The notes below the pieces were generated by a model. It was given only the letters and a program-made list of their open reading frames with translations, was not told the origin of the DNA and made no database searches. Positions 10,109 to 19,384 of a DNA stretch of 64,000 nt are shown here, piece by piece (position 1 is the first letter of the stretch; every line of letters begins with the position of its first letter). Location of the stretch: positions 7,748-71,747 of the forward strand of contig JAECRA010000014.1 in the NCBI GenBank assembly GCA_015999985.1, written 5' to 3'. The stretch is from Comamonadaceae bacterium (GTDB lineage: Bacteria > Pseudomonadota > Gammaproteobacteria > Burkholderiales > Burkholderiaceae_C). The position numbers were made by a program, and so were the translations under genes.

Positions 10109-11530
10109 TCAGGAAGGATCGCTTGCCTTGAACAAGGCGGCAATCTTGCGCTTGGGCTTGATGTTGGCCGAAATGCCGGAACGTTGGGGCTTGGCAGCCG
10201 CCTCCCATGGCGCTGGCTGTTCTGGTGCCGCGCTCGTCGATTCATACGGCCGGTTGAAGAACGGGTCTGCGGGTGGTGGGGAAGGAGCGAATGACCGGCG
10301 TTCACCGCCACTGCGGCGGTCCCGCGGAGCCTCTGATTCTTCCTGCCACGCTCGGCGGCCATCATTGAAGCGGCCGCGCGGTTTTTCTTCTTCGAACTCT
10401 ATGTGTTCGACCTCAATTTTTTTCTTGAGCAGCTTTTCCAGATCACCCATCAATCGGCCATCGCCCTTGGTGACCATGGTGACGGCCAGTCCGGAAGCGC
10501 CCGCTCGGCCAGTACGGCCAATGCGGTGAACATAGTCTTCGGCGTTGAATGGGACGTCGAAGTTGAAAACCGCAGGCACATCCTTGATGTCCAGCCCACG
10601 CGCCGCGACGTCGGTAGCTACCAGCAGATCGACTTCACCCGCCTTGAACGCAGCCAGCGCCTTGAGGCGCTCGTCTTGGCTCTTGTCGCCGTGCAAGGCG
10701 GTCGTGCGGAGACCATCGCGCTCCAGCGTACGTGCGAGCCTGGCGCAACCGAGCTTGCTATTGACGAAAACGAACGCCTGCCGAATGGCGCGGTCTTTCA
10801 GGACCTGCTGCAGCGCACGGCGTTTGTCATCATCCGAGACCATGTAGAAATGCTGCTCGACCGTCGACGCTGTCTCATTTGGCCGCGCGACCTCGATGGT
10901 GACCGGGTCTTGCAGGTAGCTGCCAGCCAGCCGCTTGATCTCGGGCGAGAAAGTAGCGGAAAACAGCAAGGTTGTGCGCGACTTGGGCAGATAGCTCAGA
11001 ATGCGCTGGAGATCCGGCAGAAAGCCGATGTCGAGCATGCGGTCAGCTTCGTCCAGGACAACGTACTCAACCTGGTTGAGCACCGCTGTCTTGGCTTCAA
11101 TATGGTCCAGCAAGCGGCCGGGCGTGGCGACCAGCACTTCGACGCCCTTTTTCAGCTCCGCTATTTGCGGCTTCATATCCATACCGCCAAAGACCACTGC
11201 ACTGCGCAGTTGGGTGTATTTGGCGTATTGCTTGATCTGGCCTGCGACCTGGTCAGCCAGTTCGCGTGTGGGCAGCAGCACGAGCGCGCGCACGGGGTGG
11301 CGTGCGGGTGACGTGCTGACGTTTTCGTGCTTCAGCATCCGCTGAAGAAGGGGCAGGGAGAATGCGGCGGTTTTACCGGTGCCGGTTTGCGCGGCGCCCA
11401 TGACATCTCGGCCTTCGAGAACCACCGGAATGGCTTCGGCCTGGATAGGCGTCATGTTTTCGTAGCCCATTTCGGCCACGGCGCGCTTCAGGGGTTCTGC
11501 CAGCGAAAGATTGGAGTATGAGTTGCTCAT
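10109..11530 (-). CDS. rhlE: DEAD-box RNA helicase, RhlE type
   Basis: The 473-residue protein is an ATP-dependent RNA helicase. Motifs in order are the Q motif (YENMTPIQAEAIP), Walker A (AQTGTGKT), PTRELADQV, TPGRLLD, the DEAD box (VLDEADRMLD), SATFS, the FVNSKLG region and HRIGRTGRAG. A basic, glycine- and arginine-rich tail (about 385-473) is typical of RhlE and helps bind RNA, for example in ribosome assembly. The frame extends upstream to 11578, but the ATG at 11530 matches the family start (MSNSYSNLSLAEPL). It is downstream of, and in line with, the metallopeptidase gene. RhlE is the best match among DEAD-box groups. Confidence 0.9.
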   Translation of the reverse strand: MSNSYSNLSLAEPLKRAVAEMGYENMTPIQAEAIPVVLEGRDVMGAAQTGTGKTAAFSLPLLQRMLKHENVSTSPARHPVRALVLLPTRELADQVAGQIKQYAKYTQLRSAVVFGGMDMKPQIAELKKGVEVLVATPGRLLDHIEAKTAVLNQVEYVVLDEADRMLDIGFLPDLQRILSYLPKSRTTLLFSATFSPEIKRLAGSYLQDPVTIEVARPNETASTVEQHFYMVSDDDKRRALQQVLKDRAIRQAFVFVNSKLGCARLARTLERDGLRTTALHGDKSQDERLKALAAFKAGEVDLLVATDVAARGLDIKDVPAVFNFDVPFNAEDYVHRIGRTGRAGASGLAVTMVTKGDGRLMGDLEKLLKKKIEVEHIEFEEEKPRGRFNDGRRAWQEESEAPRDRRSGGERRSFAPSPPPADPFFNRPYESTSAAPEQPAPWEAAAKPQRSGISANIKPKRKIAALFKASDPS

Positions 11531-11611
11531 GAACCCCCTATTATCCCCTTTCGAAGCTACAAGGTGCCTTTTCAGCAAATCAGCGCCTTTAGCGCTGACT
11601 ACAGTGAAGCC

Positions 11612-12487
11612 TTAAAGTGCCTGCGTATTGAAGGTATCGCAGGCCTGAACACTGCCGGTTTTGAGCCCGGTGTTGAACCACCGCTGGCGTTGTGCACTGG
11701 AGCCGTGTGTGAAACTGTCGGGCCTCACGGTCCCGGACTGTTGCCGCTGCAACGCATCGTCGCCGATGCGAGCGGCAGCATTCATGGCGGACTCAATATC
11801 GCCTTGTTCCAGCCAGTTCTTGGCCTGCTGGGATTTGTTGGCCCAGATGCCTGCAAAACAGTCTGCCTGAAGCTCCACTCTGACGCTGAGGGCGTTCTGC
11901 TGCGATTGGCTGACTCTGCCTCGCATGGCGTCGACTTTCTGCGTGACGCCCAGAAGAGTCTGAACGTGGTGGGCGACTTCATGCGCGATCACGTAGGCCT
12001 GCGCAAACTCTCCAGGCGCACCGAGTTGCCGACTGAGCGTGTCGAAGAAATCCATGTCCAGGTAGACCTTTTGGTCGCCCGGGCAATAAAAGGGACCCAT
12101 GGCGGACTGGCCGGTACCGCAAGCCGTGGGCGTGACTCCACGGAAGAGCACCAGCCTGGGGGCTTTGTATTGCGCGCCACCTTCTCGGAAAATCTGGCCC
12201 CAGGCGTCTTCAGTAGAGGCCAGCACGGTGGACACAAAGGCCGCACGGGTATCGCCAGCTGGCGGCTTTTGAGCCGGTCCCTGCTGCTGCACCTGCGGTT
12301 GGCCGCTGCCAGAGATCACGCCTATGGTGGTCAGTGGATTGATGCCAAATACCCCCCATGCGACCAAGGCGATCACGATGGTGCCGATGCCAATCGAGCG
12401 CCCTCCAATGCCGAAGCCTCCGCCACCGCCGCCGCCCGAGCGTCGGTCTTCTACGTTGTCCGACTGCCGATTGCCTTCCCATTTCAT
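11612..12487 (-). CDS. ypfJ: Neutral zinc metallopeptidase, YpfJ family
   Basis: The 291-residue protein starts with the family signature MKWEGNRQSDNVEDRR and a glycine run, followed by one transmembrane helix (about 31-48). The zinc-binding motif HEVAHH is at residues 169-174 (His169, Glu170, His173), and the ELQADCFAG segment further on probably supplies the third ligand. Members are membrane-anchored proteins of unknown physiological role, often described as putative neutral zinc metallopeptidases. It is divergent from the pyroglutamyl peptidase gene, with only 45 bases between the starts. Confidence 0.9.
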   Translation of the reverse strand: MKWEGNRQSDNVEDRRSGGGGGGGFGIGGRSIGIGTIVIALVAWGVFGINPLTTIGVISGSGQPQVQQQGPAQKPPAGDTRAAFVSTVLASTEDAWGQIFREGGAQYKAPRLVLFRGVTPTACGTGQSAMGPFYCPGDQKVYLDMDFFDTLSRQLGAPGEFAQAYVIAHEVAHHVQTLLGVTQKVDAMRGRVSQSQQNALSVRVELQADCFAGIWANKSQQAKNWLEQGDIESAMNAAARIGDDALQRQQSGTVRPDSFTHGSSAQRQRWFNTGLKTGSVQACDTFNTQAL

Positions 12488-12532
12488 GGGTGAACTCCTC
12501 GCCTGAATGCGCTGGTGCGCTAAATTACTCTA

Positions 12533-13216
12533 ATGGTATCCCCAACCAGACCCGTTGTGCATTTTCCACAGACCCTGCCACTATCAGTATTGGTAACCGG
12601 GTTTGATTCCTTCGGCGGCAACACGGTCAACGCCAGTTGGCTCATCGCACAGCAACTTCACGGCAGCCGCATCGCGGGTCACCGTTTGATTTCAGCACAA
12701 TTGCCTACTGTTTTCAGCCAATCAGCTACCGACCTGTACGCGCTCATGCGCGAACATTGTCCTGCACTGGTGATTTGTCTGGGTCTGTCCGAGAGCACGC
12801 GCTCCATTTCCATAGAGCGTATTGCCATCAACGTCGATGATGCCCGCATTGCTGACAACGCAGGCAGGCAACCTATTGATGAACCGGTAGTTTTAGGCGC
12901 TCCGGCTGCTTATTTCAGCCTTCTTCCCATCAAGGCCATGAGAGCTGCCATCAACGCCAAAGGCATACCGGCGGAAATTTCGCAGTCGGCAGGCACTTTC
13001 GTGTGCAACCATGTGTTTTTCAAGCTCATGCACCTTTTGGCTACCGACGACCAATTCAAGGGTGTGCGAGGCGGCTTTATGCATGTGCCACCCGTGAGCG
13101 AAACAGACGGCCAAGGTTTGCCTCTCGCTCAGCTGGTAGATGGTGTGCGTATTGGCGTGCATACCGCCTTGACGGCGGTTGCGGACATTCGTACAGAAGG
13201 CGGTAGCTTGAATTGA
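12533..13216 (+). CDS. pcp: Pyroglutamyl-peptidase I (C15 peptidase)
   Basis: The 227-residue cytoplasmic enzyme removes N-terminal pyroglutamate from peptides. The fold begins with LVTGFDSFGG. The catalytic triad is visible: Glu95 in ISIERIAIN, Cys158 in SAGTFVCNHVF and His184 in GGFMHVP. The length is slightly above the usual 210-215 residues because of an N-terminal extension of about 16 residues; the start ATG at 12533 has no strong ribosome site, so a later start cannot be excluded. It is convergent with dcd. Confidence 0.92.
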   Translation: MVSPTRPVVHFPQTLPLSVLVTGFDSFGGNTVNASWLIAQQLHGSRIAGHRLISAQLPTVFSQSATDLYALMREHCPALVICLGLSESTRSISIERIAINVDDARIADNAGRQPIDEPVVLGAPAAYFSLLPIKAMRAAINAKGIPAEISQSAGTFVCNHVFFKLMHLLATDDQFKGVRGGFMHVPPVSETDGQGLPLAQLVDGVRIGVHTALTAVADIRTEGGSLN

Positions 13217-13244
13217 GCGAGCGGTTCGGCTCGCCGCTCCGGTT

Positions 13245-13820
13245 TCAGGTCTTGGGCAGGGTCACGCCTACCTGGCCCTGGTATTTTCCGCCCCGGTCTT
13301 TGTAGCTGGTTTCGCAGACGTCGTCAGGGTCACTTTCGAAGAATAGCACCTGCGCGCAGCCCTCGCCCGCGTAGATCTTGGCAGGCAGCGGTGTGGTGTT
13401 GGAAAACTCCAGCGTGACGTAGCCTTCCCATTCTGGCTCAAACGGCGTGACGTTGACGATGATGCCGCAGCGGGCATAGGTGCTCTTGCCCAGACAGATG
13501 GTCAGCACATTGCGTGGAATGCGGAAATATTCCATCGTGCGGGCCAGCGCAAAGCTGTTGGGCGGAATGATGCAGACCGGGGCGTTGATGTCGACAAAGC
13601 TCTTCTCGTCGAAATTCTTGGGGTCCACCACAGTGGAGTGGATGTTGGTGAAGACCTTGAATTCCGGGGCGCAGCGAATGTCGTAGCCATAGCTGGAAGT
13701 GCCGTAGCTGACGATCTTTTCGCCAGTGGGTGATTGCCGTACTTGACCGGGCTCGAAGGGCTCGATCATGCCGTGTTGCTCTGCCATGCGGCGGATCCAT
13801 TTGTCGCTCTTGATGCTCAT
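13245..13820 (-). CDS. dcd: dCTP deaminase
   Basis: The 191-residue enzyme deaminates dCTP to dUTP, supplying the precursor for dTMP synthesis. Recognisable segments are [28 protein letters not shown], the nucleotide-binding [11 protein letters not shown] with the neighbouring [14 protein letters not shown] containing the catalytic glutamate, and the C-terminal YQGQ that closes over the substrate. The length (about 190) is normal. The gene is convergent with pcp and stands alone. Confidence 0.96.
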
Positions 13821-14006
13821 TGCGCGAGTTTTTCTGATTGGCTGCAGGGGCAGGTATTGTAGAGAGGCCTGGAGCCGGATGACGGAGTTCCAGACCGATG
13901 TAGGTCATGTGATGACCTCATTGATCATCCTTGACTTGGCTGAGAGCAATTATGGCCCCGGTCTGTAAGCCAGTCCGTGGCCGGGTCTGAGGTGATTCGT
14001 TGTTAT

Positions 14007-14035
14007 TTATTACTATTTAATTAAAAAGTTACAAT
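14007..14035 (+). promoter_or_regulatory. Candidate sigma-70 promoter for the IPTL-CTERM gene
   Basis: In an AT-rich stretch a weak -35 box TTATTA (14007-14012) is separated by 17 bases from a good -10 box TACAAT (14030-14035). It would give a leader of about 55 bases before the ATG at 14096. The 275 bases between dcd and this gene contain nothing else that I can support. Confidence 0.5.
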
Positions 14036-14095
14036 GCGGCTGTCCGGATGGTCACTTCCTTCTGCGGACCAGTACAACTTATCTGGAGAGAGTTC

Positions 14096-14692
14096 ATGTC
14101 CGCATTGAAAAACATCCTGGCGTCTGTGGCGCTGGCATCGTGCGCGTTGACCGCGCATGCTCAAGTAACAACCAACGTGAATTACAACCTGTCCTTATCG
14201 GACCAGCCGTTTACCGGCAGGTTTTATAGCGATCAACCGTGCGATTTCTCCACTTCCACCCCAATCGGCAATCGGTATCGCACCATGACCATGCAGGTGA
14301 CGATGGCCGGAAGCTATGCATTCTTTGATGAAGGTTACGACGTAGGAGCCCCTTATAGCGATGGCACGCTCGGGGTTTACTCCGGCGCTTTCAACCCCGC
14401 CAGCCCATCCACCAACTGCGTGGGTAGCGTGGACGACGATCAACCCTTGAATTTGACTCCAGGTACATATACCTTGGTTTTGTCGTCCTACGATGGGCAG
14501 GGCGATGGTGAGGGAGACGTGGGCGTTCCGGGCCAGTTCTTCTACCAAATTTCCGGACCCGCGCGCGTCGTGCTGCCCGGCAATACCCCACCAGCCGTTA
14601 CGGCAGTGCCTACTCTTTCCGAATGGACTTTGATGCTTCTGGCCCTCTCTGCTGCAGGACTGGGCGCTAGCCGCCTACGCCGCAAGTCCTGA
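14096..14692 (+). CDS. IPTL-CTERM sorting-domain surface protein
   Basis: The 198-residue protein has a signal peptide (SALKNILASVALASCALTAHA) and a beta-rich middle resembling a carbohydrate- or surface-exposed domain. The C-terminal sorting signal consists of VPTLSEW, a hydrophobic helix (TLMLLALSAAGLGA) and a basic end (SRLRRKS). This is the IPTL-CTERM pattern, recognised in related bacteria by a dedicated exosortase-like enzyme (XrtH). The ATG at 14096 is chosen because GGAGAG lies six bases upstream and because it begins the signal peptide. No sorting enzyme is visible in the window, so it must be encoded elsewhere. Confidence 0.85.
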   Translation: MSALKNILASVALASCALTAHAQVTTNVNYNLSLSDQPFTGRFYSDQPCDFSTSTPIGNRYRTMTMQVTMAGSYAFFDEGYDVGAPYSDGTLGVYSGAFNPASPSTNCVGSVDDDQPLNLTPGTYTLVLSSYDGQGDGEGDVGVPGQFFYQISGPARVVLPGNTPPAVTAVPTLSEWTLMLLALSAAGLGASRLRRKS

Positions 14693-14729: not shown

Positions 14730-15626
14730 CTACAGCCCGCCTGCTTTTTGCTCAACCTGCGCCGCTTTCATCTGCATGAGCAGGCAATGCAGCATCTCGG
14801 TGGAAAGCCCGTGTAGCACCAGGCGGTAACCGGCGCGCAAGGTGCTCATCGGCACCAGGGGGTGCTTGTTGTTGAGCAGGATGAGGTGTTCCGGGCTGTT
14901 CAGGATGGTGGCGCAGTAAATGCCTATGGTTTCGTCCAACTGCAGTGAGTTGGCGGCGCGCCAGAAATCATTGTCGGTGAGAAAAAGCTGATAGACCGGC
15001 GTGAAGATCTCGATGGCCGATTGCAGATCAATCGCGTTGAGCCGGCCTTTGGGCATGTCGGCCAAATGCAGCTCGGGTTGCTCCAGCATGCTGAAGTCCA
15101 CCTGATCCAGAGGCACCGGGGCCAGCGTGCTGCCGTTGGCGCGCAGCGCGGTGTTCAGGTTGATGATGAAGTTGTAGAGGTTGAGGTCGTGCTTGAGAAA
15201 AAGCTCGTCCTTCAGGTCATCGATGTCCATGGGCGCAATCGGGCTGAGCTGCACTTGGACTCCGGAGTTCGCGGCGATGAACGCCAGGATCTGCGAACCC
15301 AGGTGGAAGTGCCGCATGATCAACCAGTTGGCTTGCGGAGACAACGTGAGGCGCATGCCACGGGCCAGAATGCGGTGCAACATGCGCGAGGCCGACCAAT
15401 TGCGTGGCAATGGGATCTTCAGCAGTTGAATCAGCACGATGCAGGTGCGTGCCAGCGGCCGGATGAGCGGCAGCAGGTACTGGCGCGACCCCGAAGCCGC
15501 ATCGGCCAGCCAGGCACGCTTGACGCCGTCTTCCAGTGGCGTGCTCTGATCGAGATAGCTGGCCAACCAGGGGCTGGGGTCACGGGGGTCGTGCGAGAGG
15601 TCCTTGGGGTCCAGGCTTTGGCTCAC
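14730..15626 (-). CDS. Unrecognised 298-residue protein, last gene of the lipid operon
   Basis: I do not recognise a family with confidence. The protein is mostly helical, with no signal peptide and no clear transmembrane helix apart from a moderately hydrophobic stretch around residues 50-75 (LPLIRPLARTCIVLIQLLKI). No metal or nucleotide motif stands out, although DMDDL-type acidic patches and several histidines are present (RHFHLGSQ, ELFLKHDLN). The start is a GTG 22 bases after the stop of the synthase-oxidase gene, with no strong ribosome site, so it is probably translated from the same transcript. A partner or accessory role for the upstream enzyme is inference from position only. Confidence 0.75.
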   Translation of the reverse strand: MSQSLDPKDLSHDPRDPSPWLASYLDQSTPLEDGVKRAWLADAASGSRQYLLPLIRPLARTCIVLIQLLKIPLPRNWSASRMLHRILARGMRLTLSPQANWLIMRHFHLGSQILAFIAANSGVQVQLSPIAPMDIDDLKDELFLKHDLNLYNFIINLNTALRANGSTLAPVPLDQVDFSMLEQPELHLADMPKGRLNAIDLQSAIEIFTPVYQLFLTDNDFWRAANSLQLDETIGIYCATILNSPEHLILLNNKHPLVPMSTLRAGYRLVLHGLSTEMLHCLLMQMKAAQVEQKAGGL

Positions 15627-15648
15627 GATGATGTCGGTGTAAATTCAG

Positions 15649-17535
15649 TCAAATGGATTCAAACTGCATAGCGTAAAGCTGTGCCGTGTGTCGTGCAGTT
15701 TGCACGATCTGCTCGGCTGCAGCAGGCTCGATCTCAAGAACCATCGTCACGGCTTGCAGCCAACGCGCCAGATGGTGCTCGTCATTGGCACCATGGTAGG
15801 CCAGGAAGCGGAAGGCGCTGGCAGGCAGGTCTACTTGCTCGCGTAGTAACGGCAGCAAGGCCGGCACGATGCGCTGGCCGGTGCCTTCGATGATGTAGAT
15901 GGCGCCCAGCAAACCCAGCGGGTTGGGCATGGCCGCCAGTCCATGCAGGTAAGCGTTCAAAGCCTCGCCGCCCGGGTTGCGCTTGAGCTGGTCCAGGGGT
16001 AGTTGACCACCTGCAGCTCGGTAGTCTTCGTAGAGAATCTGAAAGTCGTTCTGCTCTTCTCCCGCGTGTTGTCCGATCAGGGCCGCCAGGGGGAGAAAGC
16101 GCATATCCAGAGATGCCGCACCTTCTCGCATCCACTTGCTGCCTTCGCGCACTTGCGGCACCCAGTTGGCAGTCCAGCGTTGGTAGGCGGCGGTATTGAA
16201 GCGCCCGTGAACAAGCTGCTGCATGACGGGGGCGCGCCAAACGCGGGAGCGATAATCCTGCCAGACGCTAGCCAGCGACGTCAATACCGGACGGAGCACT
16301 TCGTCCGCGCTGTCGGGTGCGTGGGGTGCATCCAGCGTTTCGGGCCAAAGTTGGGGTTCGGGGGCTCGCATGACGTTCGTGGCAAGAGCTTGCTTGAGCA
16401 CGCCTTGCGCAGGCACGACTTCGAAGCACATGAAAGCCGCCGTGATGCGCCCTGACTCTGGAATGAAGCAGAGAACGGTGTCCCCGACTTTAGGTGCACG
16501 AGTGGCAAACCACTCCGCCAACATGACAAAAATGGAAGCCGCACCGGTATTTCCGCGAGTGGAGAGGTTGCTGTACCAGCGATCCTTTGGAATCTGCAAG
16601 CCGGCTTTTTCCAGCAGGTCATCTATCACGGGAGCAAATTTGGCGGACGAGTAGTGGCACAGGAAGTGGTCCACCTTACCGGGAACAATCCAGCCTTCAT
16701 GAGCAAGCTTCACATATTCATGAATGCCGACGTCAAAGACGTGGGGCAGCAAGCGGATGTCTTGTCGCAGTGACATCGCGCCCGCCGCTTCGGCCTCGGC
16801 AGCGGTGGCGAAATCCAGAAACGACTTCGAACGGTCATGCGTGAGGCCAAGCTGCATGCACACCGGGTAATCGCCCGAAAAGCTTTTTTGGTGCGTCCAC
16901 TTCAGTTGCAGCGACAGGTCACTTTGGCCGATGGCAGCCGGCGCGCGGCTGACCAGGCAAGCGCCCGCACCGTCGGAAAGCATCCAACGCAGAAAATGCG
17001 CGTCAAAGTCTATGTCGTAGCCTGCGGGCCCAAAGCGCGAGTGCTTGAACATGCGCGAGGGCATGTCCACGCCCACAGCCACGGCCTGCGCATGGCTACC
17101 CAGTTCCACGGCCTGGGCGGCAAACTCCAGGGCCGATACGCCAGCCACGCAGATGCCCTGGGAGGACAGCGTTTGCATGGGTGGCGCGCCAAGCTCACCT
17201 TGAATCATGTTGGCAAACCCAGGCATGAGTGCATCCCCGCCAGATGAGCCGACGGCAAGCAATGAGACGGCGTGTAGTTCAGAGCCTGCGCTGCGCAGGC
17301 ATTCGCGGATGGCTTGCGCCGCCACATGCGCATGGCTTTCACGGGTGCTGCCGTCTGGGTCAATCGCGTAGTGGCGGGTCTTGATGCCGTTTTCTGCCAG
17401 GATCCGCTGCTTGATACGCTGCGATGCCCGATTGAGCGGGGCGACATAGGCGTCCATCTCGTCATTGCTGACGGGTTTTCCCGGCAGGTAGTGGCCAAGT
17501 CCAGTCACATAGGCGCTTTGATAGGCGGTGGGCAA
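15649..17535 (-). CDS. Ketoacyl synthase III fused to a haem-oxygenase-like di-iron oxidase domain
   Basis: The 628-residue protein has two enzymes in one chain. Residues 1-375 form a thiolase-fold ketoacyl synthase III with an intact catalytic triad: Cys129 (SSQGICVAG), His294 (FLCHYSS) and Asn329 (TRGNTGAASI). Residues 430-628 match the haem-oxygenase-like di-iron oxidase group that includes the 1-undecene-forming UndA: QHAGEEQND (His490, Glu493/494, Asp497), YIIEGTGQ (Glu550) and HGANDEHH (His581, Asp585, His588). In UndA the position of Asp497 is a histidine. The first domain should condense an acyl-CoA with malonyl-ACP or transfer an acyl group, and the second should use iron and oxygen on the product. 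The TTG start is backed by AGGAG eight bases upstream. The upstream desaturase stop is 18 bases away. Confidence 0.88.
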   Translation of the reverse strand: MPTAYQSAYVTGLGHYLPGKPVSNDEMDAYVAPLNRASQRIKQRILAENGIKTRHYAIDPDGSTRESHAHVAAQAIRECLRSAGSELHAVSLLAVGSSGGDALMPGFANMIQGELGAPPMQTLSSQGICVAGVSALEFAAQAVELGSHAQAVAVGVDMPSRMFKHSRFGPAGYDIDFDAHFLRWMLSDGAGACLVSRAPAAIGQSDLSLQLKWTHQKSFSGDYPVCMQLGLTHDRSKSFLDFATAAEAEAAGAMSLRQDIRLLPHVFDVGIHEYVKLAHEGWIVPGKVDHFLCHYSSAKFAPVIDDLLEKAGLQIPKDRWYSNLSTRGNTGAASIFVMLAEWFATRAPKVGDTVLCFIPESGRITAAFMCFEVVPAQGVLKQALATNVMRAPEPQLWPETLDAPHAPDSADEVLRPVLTSLASVWQDYRSRVWRAPVMQQLVHGRFNTAAYQRWTANWVPQVREGSKWMREGAASLDMRFLPLAALIGQHAGEEQNDFQILYEDYRAAGGQLPLDQLKRNPGGEALNAYLHGLAAMPNPLGLLGAIYIIEGTGQRIVPALLPLLREQVDLPASAFRFLAYHGANDEHHLARWLQAVTMVLEIEPAAAEQIVQTARHTAQLYAMQFESI

Positions 17536-17543
17536 GAGGGGAA

Positions 17544-17548
17544 CTCCT
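17544..17548 (-). promoter_or_regulatory. Ribosome binding site that fixes a TTG start
   Basis: AGGAG on the minus strand lies eight bases before the TTG at 17535 and immediately after the upstream gene's stop region. No ATG or GTG in frame occurs nearby, and the protein would lose part of the first strand of the synthase fold if it began later. Confidence 0.8.
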
Positions 17549-17553
17549 AGGGG

Positions 17554-18561
17554 TCAGGGTGATTGCGTATTCGCGCTGGGCTTTTCGGCCATCCGCGTGC
17601 GGCTGGCCAGGCGTGGCCATACCATGCCCAACGTCAGCGTGACCAAGGTGTAGCGGGTCAGCGATGTTTCAACCAGGCTGGGGTGCAGTTGCGATGCGTA
17701 GTGCAGGTGGTACTCAGGCAAGTCATTCCAGTGCGCCTTCGGATGCAGATGGTGCGCGGTGTGGTAGCCGATGTTAAAGAACAGCCGGTTGACGCCGCCG
17801 GTGAAGTTGCGCGCAAACTGCAGCCGCGAGTGGCCGTCCGCGTGGGCGTGTTGAAGGTAGTTGGCGCCCAGCAGCCAGTGCAAGGCCAGTGCTTGGGGAA
17901 GCAGGACATACAGGCACCACGCAACGGGGTTCAAAGCGACTAACAGGACGTGAAACCCGGCCACCCACAGCCATTGACGCAGGTAGTAGCGGTGCACAGC
18001 AGGAGCGCGCACCCGAAGGCGAGCATGCCAATCGCGAATCAATGGCCAGAGAATACAAAGGGTCTGGGCGGGATGGAGCAAATAGCCTGCGAGGTGGTTG
18101 GTGTCGCCAAATCTGAAGCGGTAGGTCCGCGCGGCATCCTTGGGGCCATGATGGTGCCGGTGGTGATTGGCGTTGTGCGTGGCATGGAACACGTGGCAAG
18201 CATGGCCTGTGAACATGGACAGCAGGGTATCTGTGAGGCGGTTGAGGCCGCGACGGCGCCAGATGCGCAGATGCATGTGGTTATGTTCAATCACCACCAG
18301 CGCCAGGCTCAAGTAAATCAGCAAAGCGTATGCGAGACCCTGCCCCAAGAGGCTCAACCGACCGCTGTATAAAAGCGCGAGCAAAGCTGGCCAGGCGAGC
18401 AAATAGGCCGTGCTGCGCAAGTCGCTCGGGTGGCGAAGCGCAGAGGACCTGGCGGTTGCAGGGGAAGCGCCATCGACAGCAGGTCCCGGAGGGCCAGACC
18501 CGGCGGCGGACACCGCCCCTTGAGGGGGGCGATGAAGCAACGGTTCAGGGACGGGTTTCAT
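17554..18561 (-). CDS. Membrane fatty acid desaturase
   Basis: The 335-residue protein has the three histidine boxes of the membrane di-iron desaturases: EHNHMH, HATHNANHH and HTAHHLH, separated by hydrophobic segments that fit four membrane passes. It should insert a double bond, or a related oxidation, into an acyl chain using O2 and an electron donor. The ATG at 18561 overlaps the end of the upstream hydroxylase gene by 17 bases, and the frame upstream of it is a shadow of that gene. The first 45 residues are rich in Pro, Gly and Ala and seem to be encoded by a GC-rich repeat-like segment (hairpin at 18513-18530), so the true functional start of the domain is later. It is the second gene of the four-gene operon. 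Confidence 0.88.
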   Translation of the reverse strand: MKPVPEPLLHRPPQGAVSAAGSGPPGPAVDGASPATARSSALRHPSDLRSTAYLLAWPALLALLYSGRLSLLGQGLAYALLIYLSLALVVIEHNHMHLRIWRRRGLNRLTDTLLSMFTGHACHVFHATHNANHHRHHHGPKDAARTYRFRFGDTNHLAGYLLHPAQTLCILWPLIRDWHARLRVRAPAVHRYYLRQWLWVAGFHVLLVALNPVAWCLYVLLPQALALHWLLGANYLQHAHADGHSRLQFARNFTGGVNRLFFNIGYHTAHHLHPKAHWNDLPEYHLHYASQLHPSLVETSLTRYTLVTLTLGMVWPRLASRTRMAEKPSANTQSP

Positions 18562-19384
18562 TCCGCAGGTCGGTGCCGAACCAACGATCCATGAAGGGAA
18601 GCATGAAACCAAAATTGCCTTTGTAGCGCACGTGGTGCATATGGTGCCTGCGTGCGCCATTGAGCCACCAGCGATCGCGCGCTGCCCCAGGCAAGAAATC
18701 GTAGTTGGAGTGTCCGATGTTGTTGAACAGGATGCTGATGACCGGCAGCATGGCCAATGCAAGAAAGCTGAAGTCATGCACCAGCATCGGCGGCACGATC
18801 ACGCTGCCCAGCAGCGCGGCCTCCACGGGGTGAAAGCTGAAAGTCGCCCAGGGCGTGGTGATGACCGAACGATGGTGATCGAGATGAAATCGCTTTAGCC
18901 GATCCGTGTGCAGCAATCGGTGGCAGAGATAGAAGTGCACCTCGTTCCAGAGCGTGAGCACCAGAATTTCCACAGCGATTCGGGTGCCACTAGGGTCTTC
19001 TGCAACGCGCGACCATCCCCATTTAAGTACCAGCCAAGGGGCTATCAAGCCCGTACCAAAGATGAGGATGGACAGGGCCGATTGCCTCCATTCGCGTGCT
19101 CTTTGGCCGGCCGGAAGTGGGCGAGGGTCCAGAACAGAGCCATGGCGCAGCCTGGGCAACACATGCTGGGTGAGCGCCAGGGTGAGAAGAGCCCCGCCCA
19201 CATACAGCGCGCTGAAATACAGCAAACCAAATGCCATGACCTGGTAGAAGGCCAGGTTCACGAGATCGGCATTGGTCAGGTCTGAAAAAGGCACTGAGTT
19301 ATCAAAGACAAGGGTGAAGACGCTATTGTCATCGCAAGCATGCAGCCTGCACGCGCCGGACACCGGGGTACCGTTTGGCGCCAC
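18545..19384 (-). CDS. Sterol desaturase / fatty acid hydroxylase superfamily protein
   Basis: The protein (up to 279 residues) carries the histidine clusters of the superfamily: NEVHFYLCHRLLH, FHLDHHRS and RRHHMHHVRY, with several membrane helices before and between them. Members are membrane di-iron enzymes that hydroxylate or desaturate acyl chains, sterols or carotenoids. The start is uncertain: the frame opens with a GTG at 19384, but the first 45 residues look unlike a membrane protein. An internal ATG at residue 49 (MAFGLLYFSALYVGG) begins just before the first helix. It is the first gene of the lipid operon and overlaps the desaturase by 17 bases. It follows the BMP lipoprotein gene after 90 bases. 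Confidence 0.85.
   Translation of the reverse strand: MAPNGTPVSGACRLHACDDNSVFTLVFDNSVPFSDLTNADLVNLAFYQVMAFGLLYFSALYVGGALLTLALTQHVLPRLRHGSVLDPRPLPAGQRAREWRQSALSILIFGTGLIAPWLVLKWGWSRVAEDPSGTRIAVEILVLTLWNEVHFYLCHRLLHTDRLKRFHLDHHRSVITTPWATFSFHPVEAALLGSVIVPPMLVHDFSFLALAMLPVISILFNNIGHSNYDFLPGAARDRWWLNGARRHHMHHVRYKGNFGFMLPFMDRWFGTDLRNETRP

Follow-up and report, generated by a model that had tools for sequence, protein, structure and literature searches.

The window analysed here (64,000 nucleotides of a Comamonadaceae bacterium, contig JAECRA010000014.1) harbors, at positions 14730-19384, four minus-strand open reading frames (ORFs) built around a gene in which a ketosynthase is fused to a heme-oxygenase-like oxidase (the KS-HDO fusion). 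We consider these genes a real and conserved module in which the partnership of ketosynthase, oxidase and a DUF6999 protein is well supported, while its product is something that we infer. In the order of transcription the genes are:

18545..19384, minus strand: HYD, a putative membrane fatty acid hydroxylase of the sterol-desaturase superfamily (PF04116)
17554..18561, minus strand: DES, a putative membrane fatty acid desaturase (PF00487)
15649..17535, minus strand: KS-HDO fusion, 628 amino acids (NF005293, PF14518 (Haem_oxygenas_2) and PF08541)
14730..15626, minus strand: DUF6999 protein, 298 amino acids (PF22523)

HYD and DES overlap by 17 bases if DES begins at the ATG at 18561, a gap of 18 bases (17536-17553) separates DES from the fusion, and one of 22 bases (15627-15648) separates the fusion from the DUF6999 gene. 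An earlier, sequence-only reading of this DNA had described four minus-strand genes with these spacings, and all ORFs and all three figures were reproduced.

A scan of genome contigs confirmed 206 relatives of the fusion, and the locus counts given here refer to the best 80 of these 206. Order and strand of all four genes are the same in 78 of the 80 loci, with median spacings of 148, 28.5 and 48 bases between match ends; as the 80 are the closest relatives, this proportion is biased upward, and 126 further relatives fall outside the count. In one exception (L024) the contig ends 100 bases past the fusion. Longer spacers of 236-467 bases between the fusion and DUF6999 matches, against the median of 48, are seen in L023, L027, L028, L030, L032 and L033. 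The sequence-only reading had expected a gene order conserved across genomes, with genes that are never found together as the contrary outcome; the order is conserved and that outcome did not arise. The view of the genes as four unrelated neighbours was likewise dropped, given that relatives of all four share order and strand in these 78 loci. The named hosts are Beta- and Gammaproteobacteria and include Achromobacter, Variovorax, Bordetella, Collimonas, Iodobacter, Deefgea, Chitinimonas, Azoarcus, Cellvibrio and a member of Lysobacteraceae; the nearest named relative of the fusion found belongs to Ottowia thiooxydans (89% identity). The spread is patchy: among 29 genomes from the window's genus three have full-length relatives, and DUF6999 turned up in 11 of 299 genomes from its family.

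In a search for a larger cluster across 37 loci, the ORFs that recurred besides the four genes were for the most part either confined to one group of close relatives (Iodobacter-like, Cellvibrio) or members of common, unspecific families (regulators of the LysR and GntR types, ABC ATPases). The module genes themselves were counted in 32, 25, 23 and 22 of the 37 loci, figures that understate their presence because the choice of the longest ORF let antisense ORFs displace some of them. At four Iodobacter-type loci (e.g., L032:16165-18045) an LplT-like ORF, named by eye, lies a few kilobases off.

A second arrangement of the module was found in the class of genome G318, which is taken to be Alphaproteobacteria from a Caulobacter control and the look of the neighbour genes, and where DUF6999 is present in six of 289 genomes. 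In all six of these loci three separate ORFs follow one another, coding for the ketosynthase, the oxidase and DUF6999, and PF14518 confirmed the stand-alone oxidase in both cases tested (30.7 and 41.2 bits). Neither HYD nor DES adjoins the module at the split loci; a search of the six genomes gave no DES relative anywhere and, for HYD, distant relatives at best, away from the module, in three of them. Thus, the core of the module consists of ketosynthase, oxidase and DUF6999, and HYD and DES are an addition in the fused branch. The four-gene pathway of the sequence-only reading survives as a conserved unit, with HYD and DES, lacking beside the six split loci, placed outside its core. Caulobacter vibrioides, a laboratory model and the control genome, has both DUF6999 and a StlD/DarB-like ketosynthase. 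At split locus L106 (reverse-strand 10904-14305) a large ORF resembling an LplT-Aas transporter-acyltransferase, named by eye, directly follows DUF6999.

Residues 1-378 (approximately) of the fusion form a StlD/DarB-type ketosynthase. The StlD/DarB family NF005293 is its best NCBIfam match (1.1e-96), Pfam adds PF08541 (8e-7), and StlD is the nearest solved structure both by sequence (phmmer against the PDB, 3.6e-56) and by fold (Foldseek 1.1e-29, TM-score 0.83 on the target; AlphaFold2 model of the fusion with mean pLDDT 82.7 and pTM 0.58). Characterised members of the StlD/DarB family join two acyl chains into a ring. This half had been taken for a KAS III; it is indeed a ketosynthase, and the generic KAS III label was given up in view of the NF005293 match and of StlD as the best structure, FabH-type matches being far weaker than StlD. 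Residues C129, H294 and N329 align with catalytic residues of StlD and FabH, and we take them to be the Cys/His/Asn catalytic set; all three are invariant in a 55-row alignment that combines the window with 48 of the 80 fused loci and the six split loci. From the 90 columns that are invariant across nine DarB rows, fused rows keep a mean of 65.7 (22 rows) and split rows 62.8 (six rows), compared with 32.0 in FabH (four rows). In a maximum-likelihood tree of 41 rows, fused, split and DarB sequences cluster together apart from FabH, subject to a long-branch warning and with no firm branching order among the three groups. On this evidence the ketosynthase half is related to the ring-forming StlD/DarB synthases, though divergent from them.

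The remainder of the fusion (residues about 409-628) is a heme-oxygenase-like oxidase domain that matches PF14518 at 1.3e-11 (45.1 bits, cut-off 28.9). Its domain profile found one convincing relative in the PDB, the heme-oxygenase-like protein 3dde (5.1e-13), the other two rows having E > 0.5; the AlphaFold2 model of this half is helical with high pLDDT, and the 50 Foldseek rows listed all concern the ketosynthase half. Candidate metal ligands, placed by alignment, are E464, E494, D497, E550, H581, D585 and H588. In the same 55 rows H490, E494, D497, E550, H581, D585 and H588 are invariant, and the rows listed have either Glu or Asp at position 464; seven invariant His/Asp/Glu residues over two classes suggest a working metal site. 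By the same alignment-based placing, all 55 rows carry ExxD in the second core helix, where ExxH would be usual. All eight other proteins whose oxidase part matched in the first related-genome search served as a control: each has ExxH at this place (8/8), and they carry His in the first helix where the module has Glu/Asp, so that they make up a separate subfamily and are no plain reference. For the heme-oxygenase-like oxidase superfamily, ligand sets of 3H/3C and 3H/4C are described in the available part of PMC13108848. Owing to its ExxD, the module oxidase matches neither set in our alignment. The residues presumed to fill these sets are positioned by alignment and not from a structure, and H490 could possibly compensate for the missing ExxH histidine.

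The DUF6999 protein had been called unrecognised. It does belong to a Pfam family (PF22523, 3.7e-123), and that family is one of unknown function, so the label holds to this extent. Its AlphaFold2 model is all-helical (mean pLDDT 81, residues 251-269 under 50) and has no PDB match at E <= 0.001, and among the open-licence full-text matches listed DUF6999 is not named. Invariant residues in 53 rows include H84, H106, H146, D147, D200, E206 and D220, together with D231, E232, H247, H255, H272, E277 and H280, and such polar residues would suit a metal or acid-base site.

We sampled 299 evenly drawn Pseudomonadota genomes, accepting StlD/DarB-like ketosynthases at E <= 1e-40, and found DUF6999 in five and such ketosynthases in 12. 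Scores of 302-344 bits on NF005293 were obtained in exactly the five genomes with DUF6999, and the other seven scored 560-601 bits. In the dialkylresorcinol route darB is listed as the DAR-cyclase and darA as the DAR-aromatase, according to the accessible part of PMC3949708. DarA adjoins the canonical ketosynthase in all seven genomes of the 560-601-bit type; it is also present in genomes G033 and G083, and it has no match in any of 13 module genomes, the window's own (79% complete) included. The DarA query was taken from canonical locus L020, chosen by its position before DarB and its flavodoxin-like look, and it received no family name from NCBIfam or Pfam. A further set of 43 module genomes was reached through the loci (L021 and L022 being assemblies G011 and G018): all 43 carry the module ketosynthase, three also carry canonical DarB, and a strong DarA match occurs only in those three, 5 to 26 bases from the canonical DarB. 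Given that in the genomes searched DarA lies beside the canonical ketosynthase and never beside the module, it follows the canonical ketosynthase. The three genomes in question (G672, G689 and G696, of loci L042, L073 and L092) hold a canonical DarA-DarB pair plus the DarA-free module, and thus neither system precludes the other within a cell.

We postulate that the four genes make a lipid derived from fatty acids by way of a StlD/DarB branch that dispenses with DarA and includes a ring and an oxidase step, a reading that we offer tentatively and with slightly less than even confidence. The ketosynthase would take two acyl-ACP (acyl carrier protein) units from ordinary fatty acid synthesis and, by analogy with its relatives, condense and cyclise them to a 2,5-dialkyl-1,3-cyclohexanedione. 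Cyclohexanediones are intermediates of the DarA/DarB route and also signals, sensed in Photorhabdus, as stated in the available text of PMC4414361. The oxidase might then stand in for DarA and use O2 either to aromatise the ring or to oxygenate it, which would yield a resorcinol, a hydroxylated resorcinol or a quinone-like lipid; DES and HYD would modify the alkyl chains. DUF6999, a constant companion of the ketosynthase and the oxidase, may serve to pass on the hydrophobic product or to complete it. If the module ketosynthase makes the same ring, replacement of the aromatase by the oxidase is the simplest reading. Fusion of the two enzymes points to a direct hand-over of product, and together with the close gene partnership it makes the product of the joined ketosynthase the likely substrate of the oxidase; that the oxidase acts on this product we regard as probable. 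The lipid chemistry proposed by the sequence-only reading remains plausible. A bolder version seems to us rather doubtful: an undescribed class of two-chain ring lipid, of hydroxylated-resorcinol or quinone-like type, formed through a new ring oxidation by an oxidase with an altered, ExxD metal site that is fused to the ring-forming ketosynthase, with DUF6999 as a new kind of obligate partner.

Several observations speak against the proposed ring pathway. The ketosynthase scores 324.1 bits on NF005293, well below the curated cut-off of 450, as do the other module genomes scored (302-348 bits), and its product may therefore differ; Asp stands where the usual ligand set has His, so the metal site of the oxidase may be altered. 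In the 30 clusters listed, neither a ligase nor any further enzyme is a recurrent neighbour of the four genes (ORFs of at least 90 amino acids, a threshold that might hide the gene of a small carrier protein located outside the operon), and two module genomes show weak DarA-like matches (4.6e-5 and 2.9e-4) on contigs other than that of the module. Furthermore, we know of no heme-oxygenase-like enzyme that aromatises a ring, and neither "resorcinol" nor "ketosynthase" appears in the available portion of the 2026 review PMC13108848.

Other readings of the fusion were weighed against the same evidence. The ketosynthase might leave a non-cyclised beta-keto acid, as OleA does, which the oxidase would cleave or decarboxylate in the manner of UndA to a ketone or alkene, close to what the sequence-only reading had in mind. 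OleA structures match the ketosynthase fold as well, the fusion suggests direct hand-over here too, and the superfamily includes the fatty acid decarboxylase UndA (PMC13108848, available part). However, OleA is far weaker than StlD (Foldseek 5.7e-18 against 1.1e-29) and the oxidase shows ExxD, not ExxH. The specific "UndA-type" assignment gained no support, as the oxidase profile found 3dde and not UndA in the PDB; neither the sequence nor the profile retrieved UndA from the PDB at E values up to 1, an absence that is compatible with a relation. UndA-like decarboxylation by the module oxidase is thus a possible activity, and the linear route as a whole is in our view unlikely. We give no better prospects to an oxidase that spares the ring and oxidises or desaturates an acyl chain, on a carrier protein or on the product, in concert with DES and HYD. 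A ring left as cyclohexanedione would explain the absence of DarA, the accessible text of PMC4414361 has cyclohexanediones themselves sensed as signals in Photorhabdus, and the operon's other two oxidative enzymes belong to acyl-chain families; yet the six split loci keep the oxidase without DES and HYD, and it is to the ketosynthase, not to either of these, that the oxidase is fused.

It is also conceivable, albeit very improbable, that the ketosynthase alone makes the lipid and the oxidase part is a metal-binding protective or structural domain like DtpC of Acinetobacter. DtpC has the same fold and guards against peroxide and desiccation (PMC13232832, as far as its available text goes), and the usual metal histidine is an Asp in the module. 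The seven invariant His/Asp/Glu residues suggest instead a working metal site, a point tempered by the fact that DtpC needs its ligands too, so that protection is compatible with invariant residues.

Both membrane enzymes had been predicted as a sterol-desaturase-type hydroxylase and a histidine-box desaturase, and this assignment holds: HYD matches PF04116 (7.4e-24, 85.1 bits, cut-off 31) and DES matches PF00487 (7.5e-20, 72.2 bits, cut-off 29.7, residues 148-366 of the longer ORF), and histidine clusters are visible in both translations. Relatives of HYD (50-89% identity) occupy the same place in 79 of the 80 loci, and relatives of DES were found in all 80, with a query trimmed to the conserved part (cut at residue 119). 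Locus L083 (Variovorax sp. KK3) has the other three genes in order, and no HYD relative was found there.

The start of DES is most likely the ATG at 18561, which gives 335 amino acids, with a TTG at 18420 as an alternative; O. thiooxydans has an in-frame overlapping ATG at the equivalent position. The longer DES ORF runs to 18777, its first 72 residues lying within the HYD gene in another frame. Searches with the full-length query found relatives that match this N-terminal part too, and since such matches are explicable by conservation of the HYD DNA they were not counted in favor of a longer start. The 3' end of HYD contains a second reading frame, open over a long stretch and in phase with DES (18545-18777, minus strand), most likely a by-product of HYD conservation. 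The GTG start of HYD at 19384 is uncertain, as 79 matches begin at a median residue of 41 (lowest 8). Convergent with the operon, a small secreted-looking protein is encoded at 14048-14692 on the plus strand, with a C-terminus that presumably resembles the IPTL-CTERM sorting signal.

No characterised cluster with the four-gene set was recognised among the matches listed from open-licence full-text literature (subscription journals being mostly outside). The claim that the operon is undescribed stands in that sense and falls in another, as antiSMASH "resorcinol" regions are in print: the available texts report one with a DarB core gene in Achromobacter mucicolens IA, and one in Variovorax sp. 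S12S4 that resembles no known cluster. A. mucicolens LMG 26685 (G684) has a single StlD/DarB-family ketosynthase at E <= 1e-40, that of the module, and the "resorcinol" region of strain IA, a different strain, is therefore probably the module. Going by the accessible part of PMC13108848, function has been validated for only about a dozen heme-oxygenase-like oxidases, and the products of DarB-type routes serve as components of pigments and as signals between cells (PMC3949708 and PMC4414361, available parts). A DarA-free branch spread over many genera, with both key families present in Caulobacter, would add a lipid pathway to which genome-mining software now gives the plain label "resorcinol", and DUF6999, for which Pfam gives no function, gains a testable context from the ketosynthase-oxidase partnership.

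Among known systems, the antiSMASH "resorcinol" label is rule-based and is probably triggered by the module's DarB-like core gene; it implies a resorcinol product, whereas that of the module is one we only infer. HYD and DES share with membrane di-iron hydroxylases and desaturases the families PF04116 and PF00487 and the histidine clusters. With the heme-oxygenase-like dimetal oxidases (UndA, SznF, BesC, CADD) the module has in common PF14518 and most candidate metal-binding positions, and it differs in the fusion of its oxidase to a ketosynthase, in ExxD for ExxH and in the lack of any UndA sequence match found. Closest is the DarA/DarB dialkylresorcinol pathway, on which the original work is reportedly that of Fuchs et al. 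2013, together with StlD of Photorhabdus: the ketosynthase family, the catalytic triad and two acyl chains as likely substrates are shared. In contrast, the module has no DarA and in its stead an oxidase domain, fused or adjacent, and DUF6999; its ketosynthases reach 302-348 bits against the cut-off of 450, and one of its branches carries DES and HYD in addition.

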